Below are positions 43,028-56,665 of a stretch of 64,000 nt of DNA, one piece after another (position 1 is the stretch's first letter; each line of letters starts with the position of its first letter). The stretch covers positions 186,001-250,000 of the forward strand of contig DASXEW010000001.1 in NCBI GenBank assembly GCA_036489885.1, written 5' to 3'. The notes under the pieces are model-generated. The model searched no databases. It saw nothing but the letters and a program-made list of their open reading frames with translations, and had not been told where the DNA came from. Origin of the DNA: Candidatus Baltobacteraceae bacterium (GTDB lineage Bacteria; Vulcanimicrobiota; Vulcanimicrobiia; Vulcanimicrobiales; Vulcanimicrobiaceae). The position numbers were made by a program, and so were the translations under genes.

Positions 43028-43044
43028 GGTATACAATGCATACC
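43028..43044. promoter_or_regulatory. Candidate GntR operator between divergent starts
   Basis: GGTATACAATGCATACC is an inverted repeat with 7 of 8 matching pairs around a central base. It spans the whole 8-bp gap and the ATG of the regulator. On the minus strand, TTGCCC-18 bp-TATGCA would place a promoter over it, driving the amidohydrolase. Its position and symmetry fit an operator for the FCD-type GntR protein encoded at 43036. Confidence 0.55.
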
Positions 43045-43803
43045 ACTGAACGAACCCGGAGGGCAACTACCACGGCGATCCCCTTGTCGCAAGCCGACGA
43101 TCCCCTCGACATCCTGACGACCCTCGCGGGACGGTTGGGCGACATGGCGGTCTTGGAACAAACGATCGCCCCTGCAATTCGCGAGGCAATTATCATTGGA
43201 GCCCTGCCCGGCGGGATGCGGCTTTCGGAGCTTCAGGTCGCACGCCGCCTACAGGTAAGCCGCACCCCCGTTCGCCGGGCGCTCAACCAATTGGCGCACG
43301 AGGGGCTGATCGTAATCGCTCCGCACGTCGGCGCGTCCGTGCGCGCCATCCGGCCCGAAGACGTCGAGGAGATTTACGAGGTTCGCATTGCGCTCGAGGT
43401 GCTCGCCGTGAAGTTGCTGATCGAACGAGTGAGCGCGGTCGGACGCGCGGAGTTCATGGAAGCGATGGAGTCGCTCCGGGCCGCCGCCATCGACGCCGAT
43501 GCGTATGCTGAGGCGCTCGACGCATTCCACCTGTTGATCATGCGGCTGGCTCGGAATCGCACGCTCGTTCAGATGTATCAGAATCTCGTCGGACCGATCC
43601 GGCGATTTCGCCGCATCAATCTTGGCCCTTCCGATCGAGTGCAGCGATCGCTGCGCGCGAATCTGCGCGTTGCTCGCGCAATGCTTGCAGGCGATCCGAG
43701 CGCAGCAGCTTTGATGGAGGAGCATTTGAAACAAGCCAGCGCCGACGTAATTGCCTTGCTACGTGCCCAGTTCGTTTTGAAGAAGGGGACCGAACTAACA
43801 TGA
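43036..43803 (+). CDS. GntR-family regulator with FCD ligand-binding domain
   Basis: A 255-residue repressor. The winged helix is at ~55-105 (IREAIIIGALPGGMRLSELQ, then VARRLQVSRTPVRRALNQLA). The all-helical FCD domain follows, with metal/ligand residues in EIYEVRIALEVLAVKLLIER, FHLLIMRLARN and EEHLKQASADVIALL. FCD regulators usually sense organic acids or sugar acids. No ribosome binding site precedes ATG 43036; ATG 43144 is an alternative that would remove 36 residues before the DNA-binding domain. It heads the plus-strand arm of the island and probably controls both arms. Confidence 0.92.
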   Translation: MHTTERTRRATTTAIPLSQADDPLDILTTLAGRLGDMAVLEQTIAPAIREAIIIGALPGGMRLSELQVARRLQVSRTPVRRALNQLAHEGLIVIAPHVGASVRAIRPEDVEEIYEVRIALEVLAVKLLIERVSAVGRAEFMEAMESLRAAAIDADAYAEALDAFHLLIMRLARNRTLVQMYQNLVGPIRRFRRINLGPSDRVQRSLRANLRVARAMLAGDPSAAALMEEHLKQASADVIALLRAQFVLKKGTELT

Positions 43804-45140
43804 CCACGTCAGTGGAACGCGTCGTCTCGGCCGTCGACAAGGGCATCGTACGCGATGTTCTGACGCGCCTGGTAGATACGCCGAGTCCGACCGGCCACGA
43901 GATGGCAATCGCGCAACTGCTCGCGGAGATTTTCCGAGAATATAAGCTCGAAACGCGGTTGCAAAACATCTACGACGAGCGCTACAACGTCGTCGGCCGC
44001 ATGCCGGGTACGGGAGGTGGTCCCACGCTGTTGTTCAGCGGTCACCTCGACACGTCCGTACGCGGGGACGAGGACTACTTGAGCGGAATCGGTTGGAAAA
44101 ATAAGGCTGTTCTTGACGGCGATTGGCTTTACGGCAACGGCGCGTTCAACATGAAGAACGGTTTCGCAAGCTTTATCGCAGCCATCGCAGCGATGCGTTC
44201 TTGCGACATAAAATTGCCGGGCGACATTATCGTGGCCGGAACCGCTGGAGAAATCGAGATGGCGCCGGTGGATGAGTTCGAAGGCCGCGAGTACGACGGA
44301 TACGGGACCGGCATGTGGCACCTGGTTAGTCACGGAGTTGCCGCCGATGTGCACGTGCTTCCGGAACCGACCGGCCTAAACGTACACGTCGGCATGTTCG
44401 GAACGGTGTGGGCAAAGATTACGACGCACGGGGCGTTCGCGCACACGGCCTGGTCGGCATCGCAGCCGAGTGCGATCAAGCGTATGCGGCCGATGCTCGA
44501 TGCAATCGAGTCGTGGGCACCGGAATACAGAAAGCGCAACGCCTTTATGGGCGTCGAGCCGGCGGTCAACGTTGCGGCTATTCGCGGAGGGCTTCCCTGG
44601 CGCGCCGCGCGCACGCCGAATCTGTGTCGTCTCTACGTCGACGTGCGCATTCCGCCACCAGTTTTTCCTCTCGACGTGCAGCTCGAGCTGCGTGATCTTG
44701 TCGCAGCCGTCGCAGCGCGCGAGAAATTTGACATCGAGATCGAATTCTACATGTCTCGACCCGGCACGCTCGTATCGCCGTCGCATCCGGTTGTTCGGAG
44801 CGTTGCTGACGCGCATCAGAGCCTGACGGGAAGCGACCCGCACGTTTCGTTCGCGCCGCCGTTCTGTACGGATGCAATCGACAGCAATCGTTTTGGAATT
44901 CCAACTGTGGTCTACGGCGCCGGCGGGCGTTCGCGGGCGGCAACTTCGAAGAACGGCAGCGCGGATATGAGCACCGATGCGCGGGCGTTCGACGGAGAGT
45001 ACGTTTCCATCTCAGACGTCGCAACCGCGGGACAGGTCTTCGCCCAATCCGCGATTGAGATTTGCTCGAAAAACCGGGCCGAATTCGTTCGCGGGCGTGG
45101 ACTGATGCCCGCAGTCGACCTTCAGGAGGCACGCACGTGA
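43800..45140 (+). CDS. M20-family hydrolase with apparent loss of metal ligands
   Basis: A 446-residue protein with the ArgE/DapE/carboxypeptidase G2 fold. SGHLDTS keeps the first His and Asp, and LPEPTGLNVHVG keeps a Glu ligand. The usual bridging Asp (GRGAxDMKGG) is Asn here (NGAFNMKNG). The usual Glu-Glu pair appears as AGEIEM. The C-terminal His of the AH-x-x-x-EYV block seems to be Phe (ARAFDGEYVSIS). A dinuclear zinc site as in characterised peptidases therefore looks impaired; it may use one metal, do other chemistry or bind only. It overlaps the regulator gene (ATGA) and the binding-protein gene (GTGA). Confidence 0.85.
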   Translation: MTTSVERVVSAVDKGIVRDVLTRLVDTPSPTGHEMAIAQLLAEIFREYKLETRLQNIYDERYNVVGRMPGTGGGPTLLFSGHLDTSVRGDEDYLSGIGWKNKAVLDGDWLYGNGAFNMKNGFASFIAAIAAMRSCDIKLPGDIIVAGTAGEIEMAPVDEFEGREYDGYGTGMWHLVSHGVAADVHVLPEPTGLNVHVGMFGTVWAKITTHGAFAHTAWSASQPSAIKRMRPMLDAIESWAPEYRKRNAFMGVEPAVNVAAIRGGLPWRAARTPNLCRLYVDVRIPPPVFPLDVQLELRDLVAAVAAREKFDIEIEFYMSRPGTLVSPSHPVVRSVADAHQSLTGSDPHVSFAPPFCTDAIDSNRFGIPTVVYGAGGRSRAATSKNGSADMSTDARAFDGEYVSISDVATAGQVFAQSAIEICSKNRAEFVRGRGLMPAVDLQEART

Positions 45141-46108
45141 ATAACACATCCAAGCAAAACATCTCTCGTCGGGCGGTAATTGCAGCTGGCGCAGCTGCGG
45201 CTGCGACCTTTAGTTCCATTAACGTCGTTCGAGCGCAAGCGAAGTTGCGCAAGCTGAACATCGTGCTCGGTACGACGCCGCAGTTCGGTAACGTAATCGT
45301 CGGATTACAAAAGGGATTCTACGAGAAAGAAGGCTTGCCGGCGGAGATCACCTACTTCACGAGCGGCTCGGCCGCGACGCAAGCATTCCGAACCGGAAAC
45401 GGCGACGTTGCCGTGGCCGGCGATCTCCCTTCGCTCCGATTGTGGACGGGTGGCGACGGAGTTGGTCTGTGTCCGCAAGCGCACTATGATTTGAGCATCA
45501 TCGTCACGCGCGATTCGATCAAGAACGCGCAGGACATGAAGGGTAAGAAGATCGGGATTCTGCTCGGATCCACGTCCGAATATTTCATTCAAAAATACGT
45601 CACAAAAGCCGGCATGACGATGAACGATATCCAGGCGATCAACTTGACGCCGGCGGAGATGGTAACCGGACTGGATCGCGGCGATATCGACGGCTTCGTA
45701 CTGTGGCAGCCGTTCGGTTGGAAGGCCGTTGACACGATCAAAGGCGTGCACATCCTGACCGATGCCGGACCATATTTCCAAGAATGGGAAGCCTGCACCG
45801 TCAATAAAACCTATGCGGCGACGCACCAACCGGAGCTTGCCGCATTTGTGAGAGGCCTGCGAGCGGCCGGCAAGTGGATCCCTGGCAATCTCGATGACGC
45901 GGGGCAAGCGGTCGCGCAAGCGCTGCGTACGCAAGACGTTGCGACCATGAAGAAGCAGCTCGGTCTCATCAACTGGGATTTGAATTTCACGCCGAAGTTC
46001 AGAAGCGATATGGACCAGCTTGCGGGCTTTATCAAGACGAAGATCGACTGGAGCACGATGTTCGATCCTCGTTCCTTACGCCAAGTGGATTCGTCGCTCG
46101 TTTCTTGA
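45137..46108 (+). CDS. ABC transporter substrate-binding protein (NitT/TauT/SsuA-like), Tat signal
   Basis: A 323-residue exported binding protein. The leader ISRRAVIAAGAAAAATFSS has twin Arg followed by a hydrophobic stretch, suggesting export by Tat or Sec. The mature part follows the NMT1/SsuA plan: LRKLNIVLGTTPQFGNVIVG, QKGFYEKEGLPAEITYF, GNGDVAVAGDLPSL and GKKIGILLGSTSEYFIQKYV. Such proteins bind sulfonates, nitrate, pyrimidine precursors or similar small anions. GTG 45137 overlaps the M20 stop, with AGGAGG about 8 nt upstream. Confidence 0.93.
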   Translation: MNNTSKQNISRRAVIAAGAAAAATFSSINVVRAQAKLRKLNIVLGTTPQFGNVIVGLQKGFYEKEGLPAEITYFTSGSAATQAFRTGNGDVAVAGDLPSLRLWTGGDGVGLCPQAHYDLSIIVTRDSIKNAQDMKGKKIGILLGSTSEYFIQKYVTKAGMTMNDIQAINLTPAEMVTGLDRGDIDGFVLWQPFGWKAVDTIKGVHILTDAGPYFQEWEACTVNKTYAATHQPELAAFVRGLRAAGKWIPGNLDDAGQAVAQALRTQDVATMKKQLGLINWDLNFTPKFRSDMDQLAGFIKTKIDWSTMFDPRSLRQVDSSLVS

Positions 46109-46926
46109 CCAGCGTTTCGAGCCAGCCAAACTGGTCGACGGTAGCGTTTCGGGACGTCTCCAAACTCTATCGTGATTCACGGGGAGCCGAGTACGCGGCG
46201 GTCGAGGGTATCTCGCTCGACGTTACGCGCGGCTCTTTTCATTGCTTGCTCGGGCCGAGCGGTTGCGGCAAGACGACCTTGCTCAACATCGTGGCGGGCT
46301 TCGAAGCCCCGAGCTTGGGCAAGATCTCTTTCGTTTCTGCGGACGGAAGCGAGACGAAGATTGCGGGTCCCGGCGCCGACCGTTCGGTAATCTTTCAGGA
46401 CTCGACGGCAGCCTTGTTCCCGTGGCTCAACGTTCAGGAAAACGTAGCCTTCGGTCCAAAGCTGCGTCACGCGTCGATTGCGGATTTCGAACCGCGCTTG
46501 CGCGCGACGCTGGCACTCGTCGGCCTCGAACAGCACGCGCACAAATTCCCTTACGAGCTCTCCGGAGGGATGCGACAGCGCTTGCAGATCGCGCGCGCCT
46601 TGATCATGGATCCTGAGATGATGCTGATGGACGAGCCGCTTGCGGCGCTCGACGCCATCACGAAGCGCGCGATGCAGCGCGAGCTGGTCCGCATTTGGTC
46701 TGAAACCGGTCGTACCGTCGTTTATGTAACGCACGATATCGCCGAAGCGCTGCTGCTCGCGACACGTATCACCGTTATGAGCAACGGGCCAAAGGCGAAA
46801 ATAAAGGCCGATCTTCCGATCGACTTACCGCGTCCGCGCGATCCTGCAGATCCGGCTTTTGCACGCTACGTCAGAGAGCTGGAAAACCTCATCGATGAGA
46901 GCGCCCAGGTCGCGGCAAGCGCATGA
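46105..46926 (+). CDS. ABC transporter ATP-binding protein (SsuB/TauB-like)
   Basis: A 273-residue ATPase of the importer. Walker A is GPSGCGKTTLLNIVAGFEAP (~47). The Q-loop is VIFQDSTAALFPWL, the signature LSGGMRQRLQIARAL, Walker B MLMDEPLAALD and the switch VYVTHDIAEAL. FQD...LFPWL is typical of nitrate/sulfonate/taurine systems. TTG 46105 overlaps the binding-protein stop by 4 bp, and its end overlaps the permease start. Confidence 0.95.
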   Translation: MTSVSSQPNWSTVAFRDVSKLYRDSRGAEYAAVEGISLDVTRGSFHCLLGPSGCGKTTLLNIVAGFEAPSLGKISFVSADGSETKIAGPGADRSVIFQDSTAALFPWLNVQENVAFGPKLRHASIADFEPRLRATLALVGLEQHAHKFPYELSGGMRQRLQIARALIMDPEMMLMDEPLAALDAITKRAMQRELVRIWSETGRTVVYVTHDIAEALLLATRITVMSNGPKAKIKADLPIDLPRPRDPADPAFARYVRELENLIDESAQVAASA

Positions 46927-47693
46927 GCCCCGGGACGCGCAGAGCCTTGATGGCGGTGATCTCGCTAACGGCGTTCCTCGTCATTTGGCAGCTCGCGGAC
47001 ATGTATTGGTTCAATCCGCGTTTGGTACCCAGCCCCGCGACGACGTTTGTAAGCGCGTGGCAGATGCTCCGCACCGGCGATTTGGAAGCGAACGTCGGCA
47101 TCAGTCTATGGCGAATTCTCGTCGGCTACGTAGCAGGGTGCGTGCTCGGAATCATTTTAGGCGGCATCATCGGACGGGTTGCAATCATTCGTGATCTGGC
47201 CGATCCGATACTCGAGATGATCCGGCCGGTTTCGCCCGTCGCGATCGTTCCGCTCGCGATGCTGTGGTTTGGTATCGGCGAGACCTCGAAATATTTCGTC
47301 ATCGGTTACGCGTCGGTTATCGTCGTGCTGCTCAATACCGCCGCCGGCGTTTCGCGCACGCCGCGCTCGCGCGTTCGTGCGGCATTGTCGCTCGGCGCGA
47401 CGAACATGCAAGTCTTCTTGCGTGTCGTCCTTCCGTCAGCCGTTCCCTACGTGCTGACCGGGATGCGCGTCGCGCTCGGTTTCGCATTCATGGGCGTTGT
47501 CGCTGCCGAGCTCATCGGTGCGCATCGCGGCATCGGCTTCCTGATCATGAACTCGCAGATGCTGATGGAGACCGACCAGCTCTTCGTCGGCCTGCTTGCG
47601 CTTAGCGTCGTCGGCGCCGCAACCGATCGACTCTTCCGCTACATCCTCGATCGTAGCATGAAGCGCTACATGCAATTCCTCGAGGAGTCTTAG
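46923..47693 (+). CDS. ABC transporter permease (SsuC/TauC-like)
   Basis: A 256-residue inner-membrane subunit with about six hydrophobic helices. The cytoplasmic EAA loop is AALSLGATNMQVFLRVVLPS. RPVSPVAIVPLAMLWFGIGE and the end RHGIGFLI-like HRGIGFLIMNSQMLMETDQL are typical of the NitT/TauT family. Last gene of the plus-strand arm; its stop overlaps the convergent N-acetyltransferase by 4 bp. Confidence 0.95.
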   Translation: MSPGTRRALMAVISLTAFLVIWQLADMYWFNPRLVPSPATTFVSAWQMLRTGDLEANVGISLWRILVGYVAGCVLGIILGGIIGRVAIIRDLADPILEMIRPVSPVAIVPLAMLWFGIGETSKYFVIGYASVIVVLLNTAAGVSRTPRSRVRAALSLGATNMQVFLRVVLPSAVPYVLTGMRVALGFAFMGVVAAELIGAHRGIGFLIMNSQMLMETDQLFVGLLALSVVGAATDRLFRYILDRSMKRYMQFLEES

Positions 47694-48487
47694 TCCCACT
47701 CCGGGATTGCGGGAATACGTAACGTGTCGAACTCCGGTAGATCGAAGCCGTAGTGCTCGACCAGTAGATTGCGGAATGCGCGCCGGTCGGCAAGCTGCAT
47801 CGGCATCACATCGTCCCCGTCGTGGAATGTAATATCGCGATTCATGACCGAAACGCGACCGGTCGGCGTCACGATGCTCATCATGATGAGTTGCCTGAAC
47901 GGCGAGGTGGGATGGGTCGACGTCATATGGTTGCCCATCTCGAAGTCGATGGGGTTGTTGACCTCCTCGTAGTCCGACACCCAGCCGTCTACATCCGTTC
48001 CGTCGCGCTTGAATCGTAAGATGATGTTGCGGCCTTCGCGTGCGATCCAGTGCGTCGCGTTTTCAGCGCTGCCCTCGAGCGGCACAGGAAATCGTGCGCC
48101 GCTGCCTCCGAAGCCGGGATCGACGACGAATTTCCCCTCCGGAAGCGTCACGACGAGAAACATGTGCGTGCGCGGTGCTTCGGTCGGCTGCAAGAACAGG
48201 ACGACGCGTGCAGCGTGCCGTTCGACCGAAAAGCCAAGCTGCTCCAAGACCGCGCCCAACAGCGTCGAGTGCTCGAAGCAATAGCCGCCACGTTTTGCGG
48301 CCACGAGCTTCTTTTGGAGCGAATCGAGATCGAGTCGAACGCCGCGGCCAAGCAGCACGTCGAGATTCTCAAACGGGATGCGCGACATGTGCCCCATTTG
48401 AATTGCACCGAGCGTCGCAAGCGTCGGCTCGCGCGATCCGTCGTAACCGATGCGCGTGAAATATGCGTTGAGATCGATGTCCGGCAT
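47690..48487 (-). CDS. nat: Arylamine N-acetyltransferase
   Basis: A 265-residue NAT that transfers acetyl from acetyl-CoA to arylamines or hydrazines. The Cys-His-Asp triad is C70 (RGGYCFEHSTLL), H108 (RTHMFLVV) and D123 (FVVDPGFGG). The N-terminal helix bundle (YFTRIGYDG, IPFENLDVLLGRGV) is standard. It lies 16 bp downstream of eamA on the same strand, but a dispersed repeat occupies that gap and may terminate the upstream transcript. In environmental bacteria NATs are often linked to aromatic or xenobiotic metabolism. Confidence 0.94.
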   Translation of the reverse strand: MPDIDLNAYFTRIGYDGSREPTLATLGAIQMGHMSRIPFENLDVLLGRGVRLDLDSLQKKLVAAKRGGYCFEHSTLLGAVLEQLGFSVERHAARVVLFLQPTEAPRTHMFLVVTLPEGKFVVDPGFGGSGARFPVPLEGSAENATHWIAREGRNIILRFKRDGTDVDGWVSDYEEVNNPIDFEMGNHMTSTHPTSPFRQLIMMSIVTPTGRVSVMNRDITFHDGDDVMPMQLADRRAFRNLLVEHYGFDLPEFDTLRIPAIPEWD

Positions 48488-48494
48488 TATCTCT

Positions 48495-48540
48495 GTCCCT
48501 CGACTACGGAGCGCTCTGCGCTCCTACGCTCGGGATGACA
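48495..48540. repeat. Dispersed 46-bp repeat, copy C, overlapping the end of eamA
   Basis: A full copy (GTCCCTCGACTACGG ... CTCGGGATGACA) with a hairpin GGAGCGC-TCT-GCGCTCC at its centre. Compared with the copy at 23685-23730, the arms differ but remain complementary. Bases 48504-48540 also encode the last 11-12 residues and stop codon of eamA. Confidence 0.8.
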
Positions 48541-49406
48541 ACCTTAGAGCGTTGTTCTCCCGGCAGGTTCACGACGAGAAGCGCGAGCAGCATGCAGAAA
48601 ATCCCAGCCCATTGCAGCGGCTCGGGGCGCTCGCCGACCAGGAAATACGCGCTGACGATCGCGATGACCGGAATTGCGAGCGCGCTCATCCCGGCCGTGA
48701 CGGCGGGCAGCCGTTTCACCACCCAAAACCATAAGAGCCACGAGCAGACTGCCGTTACGATGACGTTGAAGACGAACACGAACGTTAGCAAGGCGTTCCA
48801 CTGCATCGGCCGCTCGTGCGCGAAGAGCGCAGCGAGACCGAGCGGGATGATCGCGACGAGGTTCTGCCACGTGATCATCACCATGGGGTCGACGGTGTAG
48901 CGCTCGATCGTCCATTTCCAGACGACGGTTCCGAGCGCCCAACAGATTCCGCCGGCCATCGCAAACACGGCGCCGACCTCGGAGACACGCGAGCCGTGAC
49001 CCGCAATGATGATAGCGAGGCCGATCGCACCGAGCCCAACGGAGATCCACTGCCGTAGCTTGAGCTCTTCGTGCAAGATCAAACGCGCGAAGAGCACCGT
49101 CCAGAACGGCATCGTGTAAGCGAAGATCGTGGCCTTCGTCGCGCCGCTGTCAGCGACGGCGATGACCGAGAAGCCGTTCATCCCCACGCCCTGAAGCAAT
49201 CCGATCAACGCGAGCGGCACGAAGGGCGCAGGGTTCAGCGAACGCCGCAACACGAGCATTAGCACGACGAGCATCGCGCCTGCCAGAATCGTGCGCAGAG
49301 CAATGAATTCGAGCGGCCCGGTATAGGGAAGAACGAGCCGCCACAACGACCAGTTCAGACCCCAGGCGAACCAGAGGGCGACGAGGCCTAGGAGCGCTCC
49401 CCTCAA
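48504..49406 (-). CDS. EamA/DMT-family transporter, C-terminus made by a repeat
   Basis: A 300-residue inner-membrane protein with ten hydrophobic helices in two EamA halves (LWFAWGLNWSLWRLVLPYTG at the start, AIPVIAIVSAYFLVGERPEP in the second half). DMT proteins mostly export amino acids, purines or metabolites. It is the last gene of the minus-strand array after the nitrile hydratase alpha gene, overlapping it by 4 bp. The last residues (VVIPSVGAQSAP) are encoded by a dispersed repeat, so the original end was probably replaced. Confidence 0.92.
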   Translation of the reverse strand: MRGALLGLVALWFAWGLNWSLWRLVLPYTGPLEFIALRTILAGAMLVVLMLVLRRSLNPAPFVPLALIGLLQGVGMNGFSVIAVADSGATKATIFAYTMPFWTVLFARLILHEELKLRQWISVGLGAIGLAIIIAGHGSRVSEVGAVFAMAGGICWALGTVVWKWTIERYTVDPMVMITWQNLVAIIPLGLAALFAHERPMQWNALLTFVFVFNVIVTAVCSWLLWFWVVKRLPAVTAGMSALAIPVIAIVSAYFLVGERPEPLQWAGIFCMLLALLVVNLPGEQRSKVVIPSVGAQSAP

Positions 49407-50026
49407 ATGGCGATCGGTTCGTTCGCTTGTGCCACGCCGATCATCGAATCGCGCGTTACGAGCTCGGCGAGTTTGTCTTCGCTCCAGCCTTCAGTTCCCG
49501 ACGGACGCATCGGGAGCACGAGATACCGCATGTCGGCGGTGCTGTCATGGACGCGCACCGCGACGCCGTCATTGACGTGAAGACCGAACTCGTGCAGCAC
49601 TTTGCGCGGCTCACGAGCGGTGCGTGAGCGATAGGCTTTGCTCTTGTACCACGCCGGCGGAATGCCAAGCAACATCTTCGGATAGCACGAGCAGAGCGTG
49701 CAGACGATGACGTTGTGCGCCTGCGGCGTGTTCTCGACGACGACCAGCTTGAGCGACCCGACGTCGATTCCGAGCTCTGCGCAAGCTTTAGTCCCATCGG
49801 CCGACAGGCGCTTCTTGAATTCCGGATCGACCCACGCACGCGCGACGACCTTCGCCCCAAGATTCGGCCCGCGGGAATCCATGATGTCGATCGCTGCCGT
49901 GACCTTTTCTGACGGGAGCACGTTTTTCTCGGCGAGTAGCTCGATGACGGCTGCCGTTAGCTTCTCGTGATACGAGCTCGGCAGATGATGCTCGGGGTGA
50001 TGTGGGTGGTCGTGATCGTCGCTCAT
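49403..50026 (-). CDS. Cobalt-type nitrile hydratase alpha subunit (or thiocyanate hydrolase gamma-like)
   Basis: A 207-residue protein beginning with a His-rich tail (DDHDHPHHPEHH), which may hold metal. The active-site claw is V-C109-T-L-C112-S-C114 in HNVIVCTLCSCYP. The Thr variant marks low-spin Co(III) enzymes, and C112 and C114 are oxidised to sulfinate/sulfenate in the family. GIPPAWYKSKAYRSRTAREP and GTEGWSEDKLAELVTRDSMI are further signatures. NHase converts nitriles to amides; the related SCNase turns thiocyanate into ammonia and carbonyl sulfide. The Tyr-Pro after the claw favours NHase, not decisively. Third of three coupled subunit genes. ATG 50026 starts at MSDDHDH. Confidence 0.93.
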   Translation of the reverse strand: MSDDHDHPHHPEHHLPSSYHEKLTAAVIELLAEKNVLPSEKVTAAIDIMDSRGPNLGAKVVARAWVDPEFKKRLSADGTKACAELGIDVGSLKLVVVENTPQAHNVIVCTLCSCYPKMLLGIPPAWYKSKAYRSRTAREPRKVLHEFGLHVNDGVAVRVHDSTADMRYLVLPMRPSGTEGWSEDKLAELVTRDSMIGVAQANEPIAI

Positions 50027-50304
50027 TTGTCTGGCTCCAACCAGTGTTCGTAGATTTCGATGTCGATCGTGTCGCTGGGGCGCTCGGCGCGTCCCCACAC
50101 TTCTGTTTGCGCGAAGCGCACGCGGTAGAGCACTTTTGGATCGTCGGCACGTCCGTACGCAAGCCGCTCGGGATTGTTAAACCTTCCGCATATGCGCTCG
50201 ATCTCGCCGCGTTTCCCGCGGACGTAGTAGGGCGTGCGGATGTGCCCCGGCGGAAACCACTCGCGGACGCGAACCCGATCGCCCGGCGCGAAGCGTGCGC
50301 TCAT
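50023..50304 (-). CDS. Nitrile hydratase beta subunit, C-terminal half as a separate protein
   Basis: A 93-residue protein equal to the SH3-like C-terminal domain of NHase beta: FAPGDRVRVREWFPPGHIRT, YYVRGKRGEIERICG, KVLYRVRFAQTEVWG and IDIEIYEHWLEPDK. In ordinary NHase this is fused to the helical N-terminal domain; in thiocyanate hydrolase the two halves are separate subunits. It overlaps the preceding N-half gene and the following alpha gene by 4 bp each, so all three are made in balanced amounts. Confidence 0.92.
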   Translation of the reverse strand: MSARFAPGDRVRVREWFPPGHIRTPYYVRGKRGEIERICGRFNNPERLAYGRADDPKVLYRVRFAQTEVWGRAERPSDTIDIEIYEHWLEPDK

Positions 50305-50621
50305 TCGGCTTCTCGTTTCTCGATCTCGGCGATCTTCCCGGAAAGTTCATTGACCGAGATCACGCCCTTTTCGAGCAGCACTTCGGTGATCGCAGCAATC
50401 CAGCGTTCGTAGTACGACATGGAATCATAGGCGTCCGCACCGATGCCTTCGATCGCGCGGCGTAATTCGTCCGTACGCACCAGCGGCGGATCGAGCGTTC
50501 CGAGAGCGCGCATTAGCGCATCGACGCGCTGCTCCCAAAAATCGTTTTGATGTTCGGCGCGATCGATTTCGCCTGCCGGTTCTCCACCAAGGTCGTGCAT
50601 CCCACGCGGGTGCGAATCCAT
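50301..50621 (-). CDS. Nitrile hydratase beta subunit, N-terminal half as a separate protein
   Basis: A 106-residue helical protein. MHDLGGEPAG near the start corresponds to the NHase beta opening. FWEQRVDALMRALG and DSMSYYERWIAAITEVLLEK match the helical domain that wraps the alpha subunit. Maturation proteins of cobalt NHases (NhlE/P14K type) share this fold, so a dual role is conceivable; no other activator gene is nearby. It starts 7 bp after the argD stop, so it lies in the arginine transcript. Confidence 0.88.
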   Translation of the reverse strand: MDSHPRGMHDLGGEPAGEIDRAEHQNDFWEQRVDALMRALGTLDPPLVRTDELRRAIEGIGADAYDSMSYYERWIAAITEVLLEKGVISVNELSGKIAEIEKREAE

Positions 50622-50628
50622 AGAAAAC

Positions 50629-51849
50629 TTAGTGCTTCCGCGTGGACGCGATCACGTGCCGTAGACGGCGCAGGCCCTCGCGCAGCTCCTCTTCGTTGAT
50701 GACGAGCGGCGGGACGAAACGTAGCGTATTCGAGCCGGCCGCGTTGATCAACAGGTGTTCGCTCAGCGCAGCTTCGACGATGTCTTTCGCGGAGAACGGC
50801 TCCATGACGGGAAGGCCGACCATGAGGCCGATGCCGCGTGGGTCGCCGAACCGTTCACGATCGGCATTTGCGATCTCACGCAATTCCAAGAGCAGAATAT
50901 GGCCCATGTTGGCAACATGAACGTTAAGGTTCATGCGGTCGCGCAGATTGAGGTGCGCAAGCCCGGCCGCGCACGGAACGGGTGAACCGCCGAACGTCGT
51001 GCCGTGATCGCCGGGAAGCAGCGCCGACGCAGCCGCATCGGTGCAAAGTAACGCTCCGATCGGCAAACCGTTTGCGAGAGCCTTTGCAAGCGTGATCACG
51101 TCGGGACGTACGTTGTAGTACTCGAATGCAAAAAGCGTCCCGGTGCGTCCCATCCCGGTTTGAATCTCATCGAAAATCAGCAGCGCGCCGTGCTTGGCAG
51201 TGATCTCCCGCGCCGCTTGGAGAAACTCGTTCGTTGCCGGAAAGACGCCGCTTTCGCCCTGGACTGGCTCGATGATCAGGGCAGCCGTCTTCGAATCGAT
51301 TGCGCCCTCGAGCGCAGCGATGTCATTGAACGGCGTGAACTTGAAACCGCCGGGAAGCGGGCCGAAGCCCTCATGATATTTTGGGTTGTCGGTCGCCGAA
51401 AGCGCACCCATGGTGCGGCCGTGGAACGAATTCGTGCACGCGACGATGACGTTGCGATCGGTTTGTCCGAGACGGAACGCGCGCTTGCGCGCCAGCTTGA
51501 TCGCGGCTTCGTTCGCTTCAGCTCCGGAATTGCAGAAGAAGACGCGATCGAAACCCGAGATCTCGGCGAGTTTGTTCGCCAGCTCGCCCGCAGGTTCGTG
51601 ATGGTAGAGATTGCTGCAGTGCACGAGCGTCGCGGCTTGTGCTGCAATCGCGCCGACGATGGCCGGATGCGAATGGCCGAGCGCGCAGACCGCGATTCCG
51701 GCAACGAGGTCGAGATAACGGTCGCCGCTCTGATCGATCAGCCAGACGCCTTCACCGCGCACGAAATTGACCGGCGCACGGTTGTAGTTCTTCATCAGAT
51801 GCGGGTGGTCGATCGCCGGGAGCGAGTGGCCGCCTGAGTGGGCGATCAC
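50629..51849 (-). CDS. argD: Acetylornithine aminotransferase ArgD
   Basis: A 406-residue PLP enzyme of the class III aminotransferases, converting N-acetylglutamate semialdehyde to N-acetylornithine (and often acting in lysine synthesis). [43 protein letters not shown] and the PLP-lysine segment [17 protein letters not shown] are clear. GTG 51849 overlaps the argJ stop (GTGA). The nitrile hydratase genes follow after 7 bp. Confidence 0.96.
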
Positions 51850-53075
51850 GTGCGGTAGTGCGCGTTGATGCGCACGTATTCGAGGGTCATATCACATCCG
51901 TATCCGGTTGCTTCGGCTTCGCCCATTCCGAGATCGAGTCCAACTTTGATTGACTTATGCTCGAGCAATGCATGAGCCTCGGCTTCGCTGAGGACTTCCA
52001 GCGCGCCGCGGTCGACCCATAGCGATCCGCCGAGCGTGATCGACCACGCATCCTCGCGCATTCCGGAGCCGACGCTTCCGGCCGCAGCGATGATGCGTCC
52101 CCAATTCGGATCTTCTCCGTAAAGCGCGGTCTTCACGAGGCTAGAGTTGATGATCGCGCGCGCGATTTGCCGCGCCTGAGCCGCATTCTTGGCACCGGTG
52201 ACGTGCATTGTGAGTGTCTTGCTTGCGCCCTCGCCGTCTTTGACCATGTCGAACGCCAGCTCGCGGCAGACGGTGTGCAGCGCGGCGCGCAAACCCGGGC
52301 TCGCTTCCTCGGTCCCCGGTTTTGCGAACGCGTATACGCAGTCATTGGTGGACATGTCGCCATCGACAGAAATCATGTTGAACGTGTCATCGACGGCTTC
52401 GGCGAGCGCCGCCTGCAATGACGTGCGCGTGCAGCTCGCATCGGTCGCGATGAACGCAAGCATCGTTGCCATGTTGGGGGCGATCATCCCCGCGCCTTTC
52501 GCAATACCACCGACGACGAAGCGCGTCTGGCACCCGTTGTCGTAGTATGCGCAGGCCTCCAGCTTCGGTACGTGATCGGTCGTCATGATCGCTTCTGCGG
52601 CTGATAGGGCAGCTTCGCTTCCGGTGCGCAGCGCGCGCACGGCCTTTTCGAGCCCGGGACCCATGACGTCCATTGGAAGCGGAACACCAATGACGCCGGT
52701 CGACGCGACGAGTACCTGCGAGGTGCGTATGCCCATGAGCGCGGCAGCGCGCGAAGCGGTCTCGCGGGCATCCGTGAGTCCGCGCTCGCCGGTGCACGCA
52801 TTCGCGCAGCCGGAATTCGCGACGATCGCGCGGATCGCATCACCATCGGTTGCAAGATGTTCGTTGGAGACTATCAACGGCGCAGCCTTGACGTCGTTAG
52901 TGGTGATCACGGCCGCGCAAACGCGCTCGCCGCTCAGATCGATCAGCGCGAGATCGGCTTTTCGGCGCTTGATGCCCGACATGACGCCACTGCAGCGCAC
53001 ATCGGGAACGGCACCGAGGCCGCCGCGCAAGTCGACGAGCCGGAACGATTCAGACGACTGGGATGCGAGCGCCAA
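51846..53075 (-). CDS. argJ: Glutamate N-acetyltransferase/ornithine acetyltransferase ArgJ
   Basis: A 409-residue enzyme that transfers acetyl from acetylornithine to glutamate, recycling the acetyl group; bifunctional members also use acetyl-CoA. Self-cleavage before the nucleophilic Thr occurs in KGAGMIAPNMATMLAFIATD. VASTGVIGVPLPMD and TDARETASRAAALMGI are family blocks, and GEDPNWGRIIAAAG is near the end. I start at TTG 53075, which has GGAGG about 8 nt upstream and gives the normal length. The frame extends further into argC but that extension is nonsense. It overlaps argC by 26 bp. Confidence 0.95.
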   Translation of the reverse strand: MALASQSSESFRLVDLRGGLGAVPDVRCSGVMSGIKRRKADLALIDLSGERVCAAVITTNDVKAAPLIVSNEHLATDGDAIRAIVANSGCANACTGERGLTDARETASRAAALMGIRTSQVLVASTGVIGVPLPMDVMGPGLEKAVRALRTGSEAALSAAEAIMTTDHVPKLEACAYYDNGCQTRFVVGGIAKGAGMIAPNMATMLAFIATDASCTRTSLQAALAEAVDDTFNMISVDGDMSTNDCVYAFAKPGTEEASPGLRAALHTVCRELAFDMVKDGEGASKTLTMHVTGAKNAAQARQIARAIINSSLVKTALYGEDPNWGRIIAAAGSVGSGMREDAWSITLGGSLWVDRGALEVLSEAEAHALLEHKSIKVGLDLGMGEAEATGYGCDMTLEYVRINAHYRT

Positions 53076-54030
53076 GTCCGGCCTCCTCAGGGTAACCGCA
53101 CATGATGTTGAGATTCTGCACCGCTTGACCGGCGGCGCCTTTACCGAGGTTGTCGTTGCCTGCGAGCACATGCACGACTCCGCCGCGAACGCTGATTGCG
53201 ATTTGCGTGTTGTTTGTCCCCGCGAGTGCGGGAAGATACGGAACGCGCGGCGCGTCGAGGATTTCGACGAACGGATTCGTTGCGTACGATTTTGCAAAGG
53301 ATCCGCGGATCTCGCTCTCCTCGATCGGCTCGCGCATCACGGCGTAGGCATCGACGAGCATCCCGCGCGTCATCGGTACGACGTGAGGTGTGAAGACGAA
53401 CGGAACGCCGATGCCGAGTGCACGCAGCTCCTGCTCGATTTCTTTGCCGTGGCGATGCGAAGGAATGCCGTACGCGCGCACGTCGCCGTCGACTTCCGCG
53501 TACATCGACGTGAGCTTCGGCGAGCGACCTGCGCCCGAGATGCCGCTCTTGGCGTCGATGACGAGATTCGAGATGCGATGCGCAAAGGGTGCAAGCGGGA
53601 TTGCCGCCAGGAGCGACGCCGTCGGATAGCAGCCGGGATTTGCAACCAGCTGTGCTCGTGCAATCTGATCGCGGTAGCGCTCGGGAAGACCGTAGACGGC
53701 TTGCGGATTTAACGACGCCATGCGGAACGCATCCGAGAGATCGATGACACGCGCGCCAAGCTCCAGGAACTTGGGCGCAAGCTCGCGCGCTTTCTCAGAC
53801 TCGCCTGCAAGGATGACGATGTCACCCGCGCGACACACCTCGAGTGCGGCACCGGCGCGATCGAACGTGCGGTCGACGTACGGCAGCGAACGGAACGTGT
53901 CGCGCACGGCCGTCCCCGCACTGCTCTGACTTTCGAGCGTGATGAGCTCAACGTTCGGATGCTGGTCGAGATAATGGATAGCGTCGCCCGCTCCATAACC
54001 GGCGGCGCCGATGATATGAACGCGTGTCAT
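53050..54030 (-). CDS. argC: N-acetyl-gamma-glutamyl-phosphate reductase ArgC
   Basis: A 326-residue NADPH enzyme making N-acetylglutamate semialdehyde. The Rossmann start is VHIIGAAGYGAGDAIHYL. The catalytic Cys is C134 (VANPGCYPTASLLA). GISGAGRSPK and the His in PSHRHGKEIEQEL match the family. ATG 54030 overlaps the argH stop (ATGA). The frame continues upstream to 54135, but the family start is at MTRVHIIG. Confidence 0.95.
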   Translation of the reverse strand: MTRVHIIGAAGYGAGDAIHYLDQHPNVELITLESQSSAGTAVRDTFRSLPYVDRTFDRAGAALEVCRAGDIVILAGESEKARELAPKFLELGARVIDLSDAFRMASLNPQAVYGLPERYRDQIARAQLVANPGCYPTASLLAAIPLAPFAHRISNLVIDAKSGISGAGRSPKLTSMYAEVDGDVRAYGIPSHRHGKEIEQELRALGIGVPFVFTPHVVPMTRGMLVDAYAVMREPIEESEIRGSFAKSYATNPFVEILDAPRVPYLPALAGTNNTQIAISVRGGVVHVLAGNDNLGKGAAGQAVQNLNIMCGYPEEAGLGARIPVV

Positions 54031-55451
54031 GCCTTTGTCGCTTCCAACTCGCTGAGCTCGTTTCGGGTTGATGCAATCGCTTCCGCGACCATGCTCGGAT
54101 GCGTGGAACCCGAGGTACGCTTGGCTGCGACGCACCCATCTGCGTCAAGCGGCGCGGCAAGTCCCGCTATTCCACTGGACGCGCGCAGTTGCTCAAGCTC
54201 AGCGTCCGACATCACGTCGCCCTTTGCGGCCGCGACGGCTTCGCCGACAAAACGGTGTGCGGCACGGGCCGTGGCTCCGTGTGCGATCAGTGCGTCGGCG
54301 ACATCGGTCGCAACCGTGAATCCGCGCGCTGCCTCGGCCGTCATTTTGGCGTGATTGAAGCTGAGATGCGTGAGCGTGATCGCGAAGGCCTCGAGTGCAG
54401 CGAGCCCGCGTTCCGTCCCGTCGAGAATCGCCGATTTAGTTTCCTGTAAATCGCGATGATAGGAAAGTGCGATCCCCTTGACGGTCGCGAGCGCACCGGC
54501 GAGCGTGCCGATGGCTCGTCCCGCCGCGGCACGCGTCAGCTCGAAGGGATCGGGATTGCGTTTCTGGGGCATCAGGCTCGAGCCGGTCGAAGCCGCGTCG
54601 TCGAGCTGCGCGTAGCCGAAAGCGGGCGTCGACCAGATTACAAGCTCTTCACTCGGACGCGACGCGGAAATCAGCGCGCGTGTCACCGCGTCGAGCAAAT
54701 CGAGTGCGACGTCACGATCGCCGACTGTGTCGAGCGCGTTGCGTGTCGGGGCGTCAAATCCGAGCTCCAGCGCTGCCGCAGCGCGATCGAGCGGTAGGGA
54801 GCTTCCAGAAAGTGCACCTGAGCCGAGCGGGGAGAATTCCGATGCGTCGTGCACCACGCGTTCGAACCGGCGTGCCGCGCGAGTGAAGCCCTCACTCGCG
54901 GCATGCAGCCAAAACGCGAGCAGCACCGGCTGTGCCGGTTGCCAATGGGTCGTTCCGGCCAAGAGCGTGCCGTCGTCGAGCGCCGTCTGCGCGAGATCCA
55001 GAAAACGTCGCGCGATCGCCGTGCAAAGGCGTAAGCCTTCCTCGGCGCGGTCGCGTGCGTAGAGAACGAGAGTCGTCGCAACCTGATCGTTGCGCGAGCG
55101 TCCTGCGTGCAGCGCTTCGCCGGCGGCGCTGGAAACGATTCCTCGAACGCGTGCGTCGATCGCGCCATGCACGTCTTCGAACGTACCGTTGCGCGCGAAC
55201 GCGACGAAGTCGCCCTTTGCGATCTCACTTGCGATTTGATCGAGCGCCGCATACAGCGCATCGGCCGCCTCGCGATCGATGACGCCGCCCTGCAGCTGCG
55301 CCGTTACGTGCGCATGCGAGCAACGCACGTCGAACGGCGCCAGCACCAGATCATCTTCGAGCGACGATCCAAACGCGAGCAGCCGAGGATCAGGCGGCAA
55401 CGCAAAGCGGCCGCCCCATTGTAAGTCGGCCGCGACTTTTACGTCGTGCAC
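54027..55451 (-). CDS. argH: Argininosuccinate lyase ArgH
   Basis: A 474-residue fumarase/aspartase superfamily enzyme that splits argininosuccinate to arginine and fumarate. The signature loop with the catalytic Ser is STGSSLMPQKRNPDPFELTR. LHAGRSRNDQVAT, GTTHWQPAQPVLL and FEDVHGAIDARV are conserved substrate blocks. It overlaps argG by 13 bp and argC by 4 bp. Confidence 0.96.
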   Translation of the reverse strand: MHDVKVAADLQWGGRFALPPDPRLLAFGSSLEDDLVLAPFDVRCSHAHVTAQLQGGVIDREAADALYAALDQIASEIAKGDFVAFARNGTFEDVHGAIDARVRGIVSSAAGEALHAGRSRNDQVATTLVLYARDRAEEGLRLCTAIARRFLDLAQTALDDGTLLAGTTHWQPAQPVLLAFWLHAASEGFTRAARRFERVVHDASEFSPLGSGALSGSSLPLDRAAAALELGFDAPTRNALDTVGDRDVALDLLDAVTRALISASRPSEELVIWSTPAFGYAQLDDAASTGSSLMPQKRNPDPFELTRAAAGRAIGTLAGALATVKGIALSYHRDLQETKSAILDGTERGLAALEAFAITLTHLSFNHAKMTAEAARGFTVATDVADALIAHGATARAAHRFVGEAVAAAKGDVMSDAELEQLRASSGIAGLAAPLDADGCVAAKRTSGSTHPSMVAEAIASTRNELSELEATKA

Positions 55452-56665
55452 GCGAGCGTCGCTTTCGCGACTGCTCCAGCACCAGCCGCAATGGGAAGAC
55501 CGACGATCTCGATGAAGCCCGTTGCGGCATCGTGGTTGAAGGTATCGCCGGCACCATATGTGGCGAGGCCTTCGTCGTAGAGCGCAAAGGGTGACTTCGA
55601 GCCGTTGACCACTGCTTGGCCGTGGAAGAGCGCGATACGCACGGACCCCGTCATACGCTGCGCGATTTGTGCGTTAAACGCGTTGAGCGCAGCGCGGAGC
55701 GGCGAGGACCACTGTCCGTCGTAGATCATCTCGGCGTATTTCTGGTCGACCGTCGCTTTGAAGCGTAGCTCGTCGCGCGTGAGCACGAGACGCTCGAGCG
55801 CTTTATTCGCGGCGATCAGCGTGAGACTGCCCGGGCACTCGTAGACTTCGCGAGATTTGAGGCCGACGACGCGATCTTCGATCACATCGAGCCGTCCGAC
55901 GCCGTGCAATCCGGCGACGGCGTTGAGCTGGGCCATCATCTTTGCGCCGCCGGTCCCGTTATAAGACGGAACGCCGTCCGTGAAATCAATGATGATTTCT
56001 TCGGGCTGGTTCGGCTGTTGCGCGGCCGGCCTCGTCCAAGCGAATGCATCTTCCGGCGGCGCATTCCAGGGATTTTCGAGCACGCCGGCTTCGATCGAAC
56101 GCCCCCACAGGTTTGCATCGACGGAAAACGGTCGCTCGAGCGTGTGCGGAATCGGCACGCCGTGCTTTTGCGCATATGCGATTGCATCCGGGCGCGACAT
56201 CGGCTCGTCGCGCAGCGGCGCGATGCATTTCAAGTGCGGTGCGCGTGCGCGGACGCCGACCTCGATGCGAACCTGATCGTTACCTTTTCCGGTACAGCCG
56301 TGCGCGACCGCGTCGGCGTGATATTCTTCGGCCGTTTCCACGAGCAGATCGGCGAGCAGCGGACGCGAGAGCGAAGCTGAAAGCGGATAGACTCCTTCGT
56401 AGAGGGCGTTCGCACGTAGCGCGTGCTGGCAGTAATCGTGGATGAAACGCTCGCGCACGTCGAGCAGAACGGCGTCCTTCGCACCGAGCGCAAGCGCTTT
56501 GCGGCGCACGCCTTCGAGCGCGGCTTCGGCGCCCTCGCCGGTGACGTGGTCGCTTTCGCCGAGATTCGCAGTCATCGCGATCACGTCGTGACCGGCATCG
56601 ATCAGTTTCTTGAGAAGGACGGAAGTGTCCAGTCCGCCTGAGTAGGCGAGGACGACGCGGCTCAT
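55439..56665 (-). CDS. argG: Argininosuccinate synthase ArgG
   Basis: A 408-residue ATP-dependent ligase joining citrulline and aspartate. The P-loop-like motif is VVLAYSGGLDTSVLLKKL at the N-terminus. VAHGCTGKGNDQVRIEVG and PYSVDANLW-like RPFSVDANLWGRSIEAGVLE are diagnostic, as is GVGRLDVIEDRVVGLKSREV. It overlaps argR by 4 bp upstream and argH downstream. Confidence 0.97.
   Translation of the reverse strand: MSRVVLAYSGGLDTSVLLKKLIDAGHDVIAMTANLGESDHVTGEGAEAALEGVRRKALALGAKDAVLLDVRERFIHDYCQHALRANALYEGVYPLSASLSRPLLADLLVETAEEYHADAVAHGCTGKGNDQVRIEVGVRARAPHLKCIAPLRDEPMSRPDAIAYAQKHGVPIPHTLERPFSVDANLWGRSIEAGVLENPWNAPPEDAFAWTRPAAQQPNQPEEIIIDFTDGVPSYNGTGGAKMMAQLNAVAGLHGVGRLDVIEDRVVGLKSREVYECPGSLTLIAANKALERLVLTRDELRFKATVDQKYAEMIYDGQWSSPLRAALNAFNAQIAQRMTGSVRIALFHGQAVVNGSKSPFALYDEGLATYGAGDTFNHDAATGFIEIVGLPIAAGAGAVAKATLACTT

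Follow-up and report, generated by a model that had tools for sequence, protein, structure and literature searches.

Three small, consecutive genes in the 64,000-nucleotide stretch of DNA analysed here (the window) encode a cobalt-type alpha subunit and a beta subunit divided between two proteins, a division known from thiocyanate hydrolase (SCNase). This layout raises the question of whether the locus encodes a nitrile hydratase (NHase), an SCNase or, as a sequence-only reading had suggested, an ancestral intermediate between the two activities, and of how cobalt would be loaded into such an enzyme. We consider it very likely, from its sequence features, that the locus encodes a functional three-subunit cobalt NHase of the split-beta type.

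Layout of the locus and integrity of the split

The sequence-only reading had described a VCTLCSC cobalt claw in the alpha gene and a beta subunit split over two small genes, in the order N-half, C-half, alpha. Both descriptions were correct, with Pfam identifying each of the halves (Table 1). The nhN/nhC and nhC/nhA pairs overlap by 4 bases each (ATGA), and nhN and nhC occupy different reading frames with their own starts. For nhA, the ATG at 50026 fits better as the start than the GTG at 50098 of the long open reading frame. The best PDB sequence match of nhN is the SCNase beta chain (2dd4_B, 1e-8), and the PDB matches of nhC are the C-terminal halves of NHase beta chains and SCNase alpha. 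Moreover, a fold model of nhN built from a 24-row alignment (pLDDT 87.3, pTM 0.71) had NHase and SCNase beta chains as its only high-probability structure matches, with modest E-values (best 1.9e-3).

Table 1. The NHase cluster and the neighbouring genes discussed in the text, in window coordinates
Feature	Coordinates	Strand	Evidence or remark
argD, argJ, argC, argH, argG, directly upstream of nhN	50629..56665	minus	Pfam; gene order shared with the sister species (L177)
nhN, beta N-half (AnhD / SCNase-beta equivalent), 106 aa	50301..50621	minus	Pfam NHase_beta_N 1e-17
nhC, beta C-half (AnhE / SCNase-alpha equivalent), 93 aa	50023..50304	minus	Pfam NHase_beta_C 2.6e-26
nhA, Co-type NHase alpha, 207 aa, His-rich N-terminus	49403..50026	minus	Pfam NHase_alpha 6.5e-80
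Cobalt claw VCTLCSC, nhA residues 108-114	49685..49705	minus	Sequence
EamA-family transporter, overlapping the nhA stop	48504..49406	minus	Pfam EamA 1.4e-39
SsuA/NMT1-type ABC transporter (binding protein, ATPase, permease)	45062..47693	plus	Convergent, two genes away

In principle, the two halves could stem from the fused beta gene of an ordinary NHase, through a recent split or through an artefact of sequencing or assembly. Secondary splitting does occur, since a Gloeocapsopsis plasmid locus (L169) that falls within the fused-beta clade has a split beta and an activator, apparently as an independent secondary split. However, the three genes recur in a second species of the genus, with their order and the arg linkage conserved (75%, 72% and 76% identity for nhN, nhC and nhA, respectively), and this already refutes a recent split. 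The same split, moreover, extends across a whole clade, and the N and C reading frames overlap through ATGA. Between these two species, dN/dS is 0.111 for the N-half, 0.169 for the C-half and 0.177 for alpha, and 0.15-0.16 for argD and argJ from the same genome pair, showing that all three genes, both beta halves included, are under purifying selection. Because the sister species has the same genes, each with a dN/dS of 0.11-0.18, the split is neither an error nor decay; a sequencing error or frameshift separating halves of one frame is thereby ruled out. In addition, trees in which the window alpha was forced to group with the fused NHases were rejected (p=0.0145), so that the alpha does not fall well inside ordinary NHases, and we regard a recent or artefactual split as hardly conceivable.

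Nitrile hydratase or thiocyanate hydrolase

Against TIGR01323, the curated NHase alpha profile, nhA scored 256.5 bits and passed the cut-off (249.85) by a margin of only 6.6 bits, while against the SCNase profile TIGR03887 it scored 213.7 bits and missed the cut-off (291.45) by 78 bits; true SCNases reach 338-400 bits with the latter. The CTLCSC claw is present in 173 of the 173 alphas compared. All five catalytic equivalents of the Pseudomonas putida beta subunit are intact in the two halves: R54, E58 and Y70 of nhN correspond to Arg52, Glu56 and Tyr68, and H21 and R23 of nhC to His147 and Arg149. In SCNases the Glu56 column is Asn (100%) and the His147 column Tyr (85%); these enzymes also conserve a Lys-His before the claw and a Trp at the otherwise acidic column after RVR, and diverge from NHases at many further conserved columns. 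At these four diagnostic sites the window enzyme has Glu, His, His-Asn and Glu, respectively, and the SCNase-specific residues are absent from all three chains at these columns. The impression that the residues around the claw look more like those of an NHase was right.

We favour the NHase assignment because the NHase alpha cut-off is passed, the SCNase cut-off is failed and the five catalytic equivalents are present. In such an enzyme, nhN and nhC would jointly stand in for a single beta chain and cover the cobalt site of alpha, in which the CTLCSC claw, its cysteines oxidised, would bind Co(III), and an organic nitrile would be hydrated to the amide.

It is very unlikely, in our view, that the enzyme is instead an SCNase or an ancestral form with both activities. 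The division of beta is the same, the best PDB sequence match of nhN is an SCNase chain, SCNase belongs to the same large split clade, the residue equivalent to His71 is Arg as in SCNase, and there is an NMT1-type ABC transporter in the vicinity, as is the case for some SCNase loci. Yet Arg at this position is the rule across the split clade and is common in fused NHases, and the downstream activator present in 6 of the 7 SCNase loci is missing here; the TIGR03887 shortfall and the residues described above also count against an SCNase.

In the alpha tree (63 rows, unrooted), one branch sets apart 32 split sequences, SCNase included (100/94), and another all 18 fused-side rows (bootstrap 97, SH-aLRT 77), with 13 sequences from the window's phylum in a separate second split clade (100/98). 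The window alpha pairs with that of the sister species (100/98), then falls within ten uncharacterised split enzymes (95/88), and no enzyme on the branches nearest to it is known to have been characterised. The large split clade also includes an enzyme with this layout from a Streptomyces plasmid (L174). In the best tree the window enzyme is not with SCNase, and a forced clade of the window pair and SCNase, which costs 16.9 log-likelihood units, is disfavoured, although the AU test does not reject it (p=0.14). The best tree and almost every bootstrap tree nest SCNase itself within the split clade; because the AU test does not reject a placement just outside (p=0.228), we do not claim this nesting as shown. 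We thus find nothing in favour of the proposed ancestral intermediate, as the window enzyme lies in a ten-member split set inside the large clade of split enzymes and SCNase and carries NHase diagnostic residues.

The second split clade (L003, L006, L009-L024 and similar loci), which is common in the window's phylum, has LLGPSP after the claw and not LLGIPP.

Three-gene enzymes and the loading of cobalt

In 134 of 174 alpha-bearing loci the genes run N-half, C-half, alpha and no other beta-like gene is close by; the 174 loci contain some duplicates, were mostly chosen by similarity to the window and are not an unbiased census. No other arrangement was as common among the relatives retrieved. 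A permuted order (C-half, alpha, N-half) occurs in 9/174, and 6/174, all of them SCNase loci, have an extra downstream activator-type domain; in 19/174 the beta is fused, for the most part followed by an activator-type gene. Among 149 genomes from the window's phylum, 31 had an NHase alpha hit exceeding the Pfam cut-off, a few of these hits being short and weak, and nearly all readable full-length alphas belong to split-beta enzymes. RefSeq-derived annotation names the half-genes 'SH3-like domain-containing protein', and the arrangement is thereby hidden. The sequence-only reading had set the SCNase-like division against a normal NHase with one fused beta. The division is indeed SCNase-like, but the contrast was too narrow, as split-beta NHases are common among public genomes and one, ScNHase, has been purified (PMC7329996).

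ScNHase, a purified three-subunit NHase from Streptomyces canus CGMCC 13662, has the gene order AnhD-AnhE-AnhA and no activator gene, and hydrates acetamiprid (PMC7329996). It thus shares with the window enzyme the order N-half, C-half, alpha, three small subunits and the lack of an activator. AnhD-Glu56 and AnhE-His21, which contribute to binding and catalysis in ScNHase (PMC13243292), appear to correspond to nhN E58 and nhC H21, as matched through P. putida numbering and not by direct alignment. ScNHase, likened here by description, comes from a different phylum, and the accessible text mentions no arg linkage (PMC7329996). Similarly, TNHase (ToyJKL) from Streptomyces rimosus, also likened by description, combines an alpha of 21.2 kDa with two subunits of about 10-11 kDa that replace one beta (PMC8574189, PMC12648386); it differs in lying within an antibiotic gene cluster. 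SCNase from Thiobacillus thioparus (PDB 2dd4) shares the divided beta, the gene order, the claw and the large clade, whereas the SCNase-specific residues, the downstream activator and a TIGR03887 score far above that of the window enzyme are its own. Classical Co-type NHases (P. putida 3qxe, Rhodococcus) share the alpha claw and the catalytic residues, but have one fused beta gene, usually a downstream activator gene and a separate clade; the window cluster has neither the fused beta nor the linked activator of that subtype. Because the layout is widespread and a Streptomyces enzyme of the same layout has been purified, the window enzyme is of a kind already known and an ordinary find. Three-gene, activator-free cobalt NHases are a widespread natural form, with which SCNase groups, and not a curiosity between two enzymes; such a compact cassette could be handy for biocatalysis.

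The absence of a separate activator gene had raised the question of how cobalt is loaded. We found no activator-type gene (a second beta-N-like gene) in the window's own genome, which is 95.9% complete and contains a single NHase alpha and a single beta-N domain; the only other match of the beta-N search was the alpha N-terminus itself (E=0.24). For a close analogue the question has a published answer, and for the window enzyme it can be approached by analogy. In ScNHase, cobalt enters AnhA in vitro under DTT without an activator, with AnhD as metal and swapping chaperone, so that direct insertion is combined with subunit swapping; an answer for TNHase is cited there as well (PMC7329996). By extension, cobalt may enter the window alpha directly under reducing conditions, and the N-half may do the work of a dedicated activator by serving as swapping chaperone. 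However, AnhA was active only with both halves, while the alpha of TNHase is reported active by itself (Nelp 2014, cited in PMC7329996), and because these two differ the analogy does not fix the maturation route of the window enzyme.

The His-rich N-terminus of nhA (MSDDHDHPHHPEHH), which had been linked to the same question, is real but not distinctive, as 20 of 29 split-clade alphas have at least 5 His in the corresponding stretch. The N-terminal helices of alpha (49840-49970) resemble the last two helices of nhN (50301-50430; hhalign probability 96.5, E 8e-10, 41 columns), hinting at a helical hairpin shared by alpha, beta and perhaps the activator.

Neighbouring genes and possible roles

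Our conclusions on neighbouring genes rest mainly on Pfam and on tblastn searches with genes of the window. Both genomes of the genus carry the cluster directly behind argG-H-C-J-D. The gap between argD and nhN is only 7 bases, on the same strand, and the genes are therefore probably co-transcribed. No arg linkage of a split NHase was seen outside the genus. In three other genera of the same family (L178, L179, L181), glyA (serine hydroxymethyltransferase) adjoins the split cluster or is separated from it by one small gene, and in two of these the order is rpiB, NHase cluster, glyA. This is a second, different linkage of the split cluster to primary-metabolism genes. Together, the two linkages are a new but minor observation, and they offer a handle on the natural role of a family whose physiological substrates are mostly unknown. 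A role of the cluster in amino-acid metabolism is possible.

An alternative is a specialised enzyme for one internal metabolite, tied to the biosynthesis of arginine or another amino acid and not to environmental nitriles. The position in the arg operon in both genomes and beside glyA, twice between rpiB and glyA, would fit such an enzyme. However, the linkage varies by genus, which suits a cluster parked in expressed operons no less than a member of the pathway, the arg linkage is confined to the one genus among the loci compared, and no nitrile is known as an intermediate of arginine biosynthesis; we therefore hold this alternative to be very unlikely.

For the split-beta NHase that we favour, the amide could be cleaved to acid and ammonia by one of the amidases of the genome, which has seven amidase-family matches. 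CobW-type GTPase matches are also present. A search of the same genome for aldoxime dehydratase, run without a positive control, was empty, and no nitrile-producing gene was located.

On a broader scale, one could speculate that the split beta is old, that classical NHases arose from one fusion of the half-genes, that SCNase is a side branch and that the split NHases of this family serve primary amino-acid metabolism. A single fusion is thinkable because the fused-beta NHases form one side of a branch of the alpha tree; because that tree is unrooted, it does not tell the order of fusion and splitting, and we regard the whole scenario as rather doubtful.

The EamA-family transporter is possibly the last member of the operon; no such gene was found beside the NHase cluster in the other loci compared. 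Genes similar to the SsuA/NMT1-type ABC transporter adjoin four SCNase loci and one fused NHase, which is only suggestive of an importer linked to the NHase. A GntR/FCD regulator, an M20 peptidase and this transporter stand in a row on the plus strand (43036-47693), in convergent orientation to the NHase operon, and may form a separate catabolic unit. Downstream of both the NHase cluster and the EamA gene, and on their strand, is an arylamine N-acetyltransferase gene (47690-48487).
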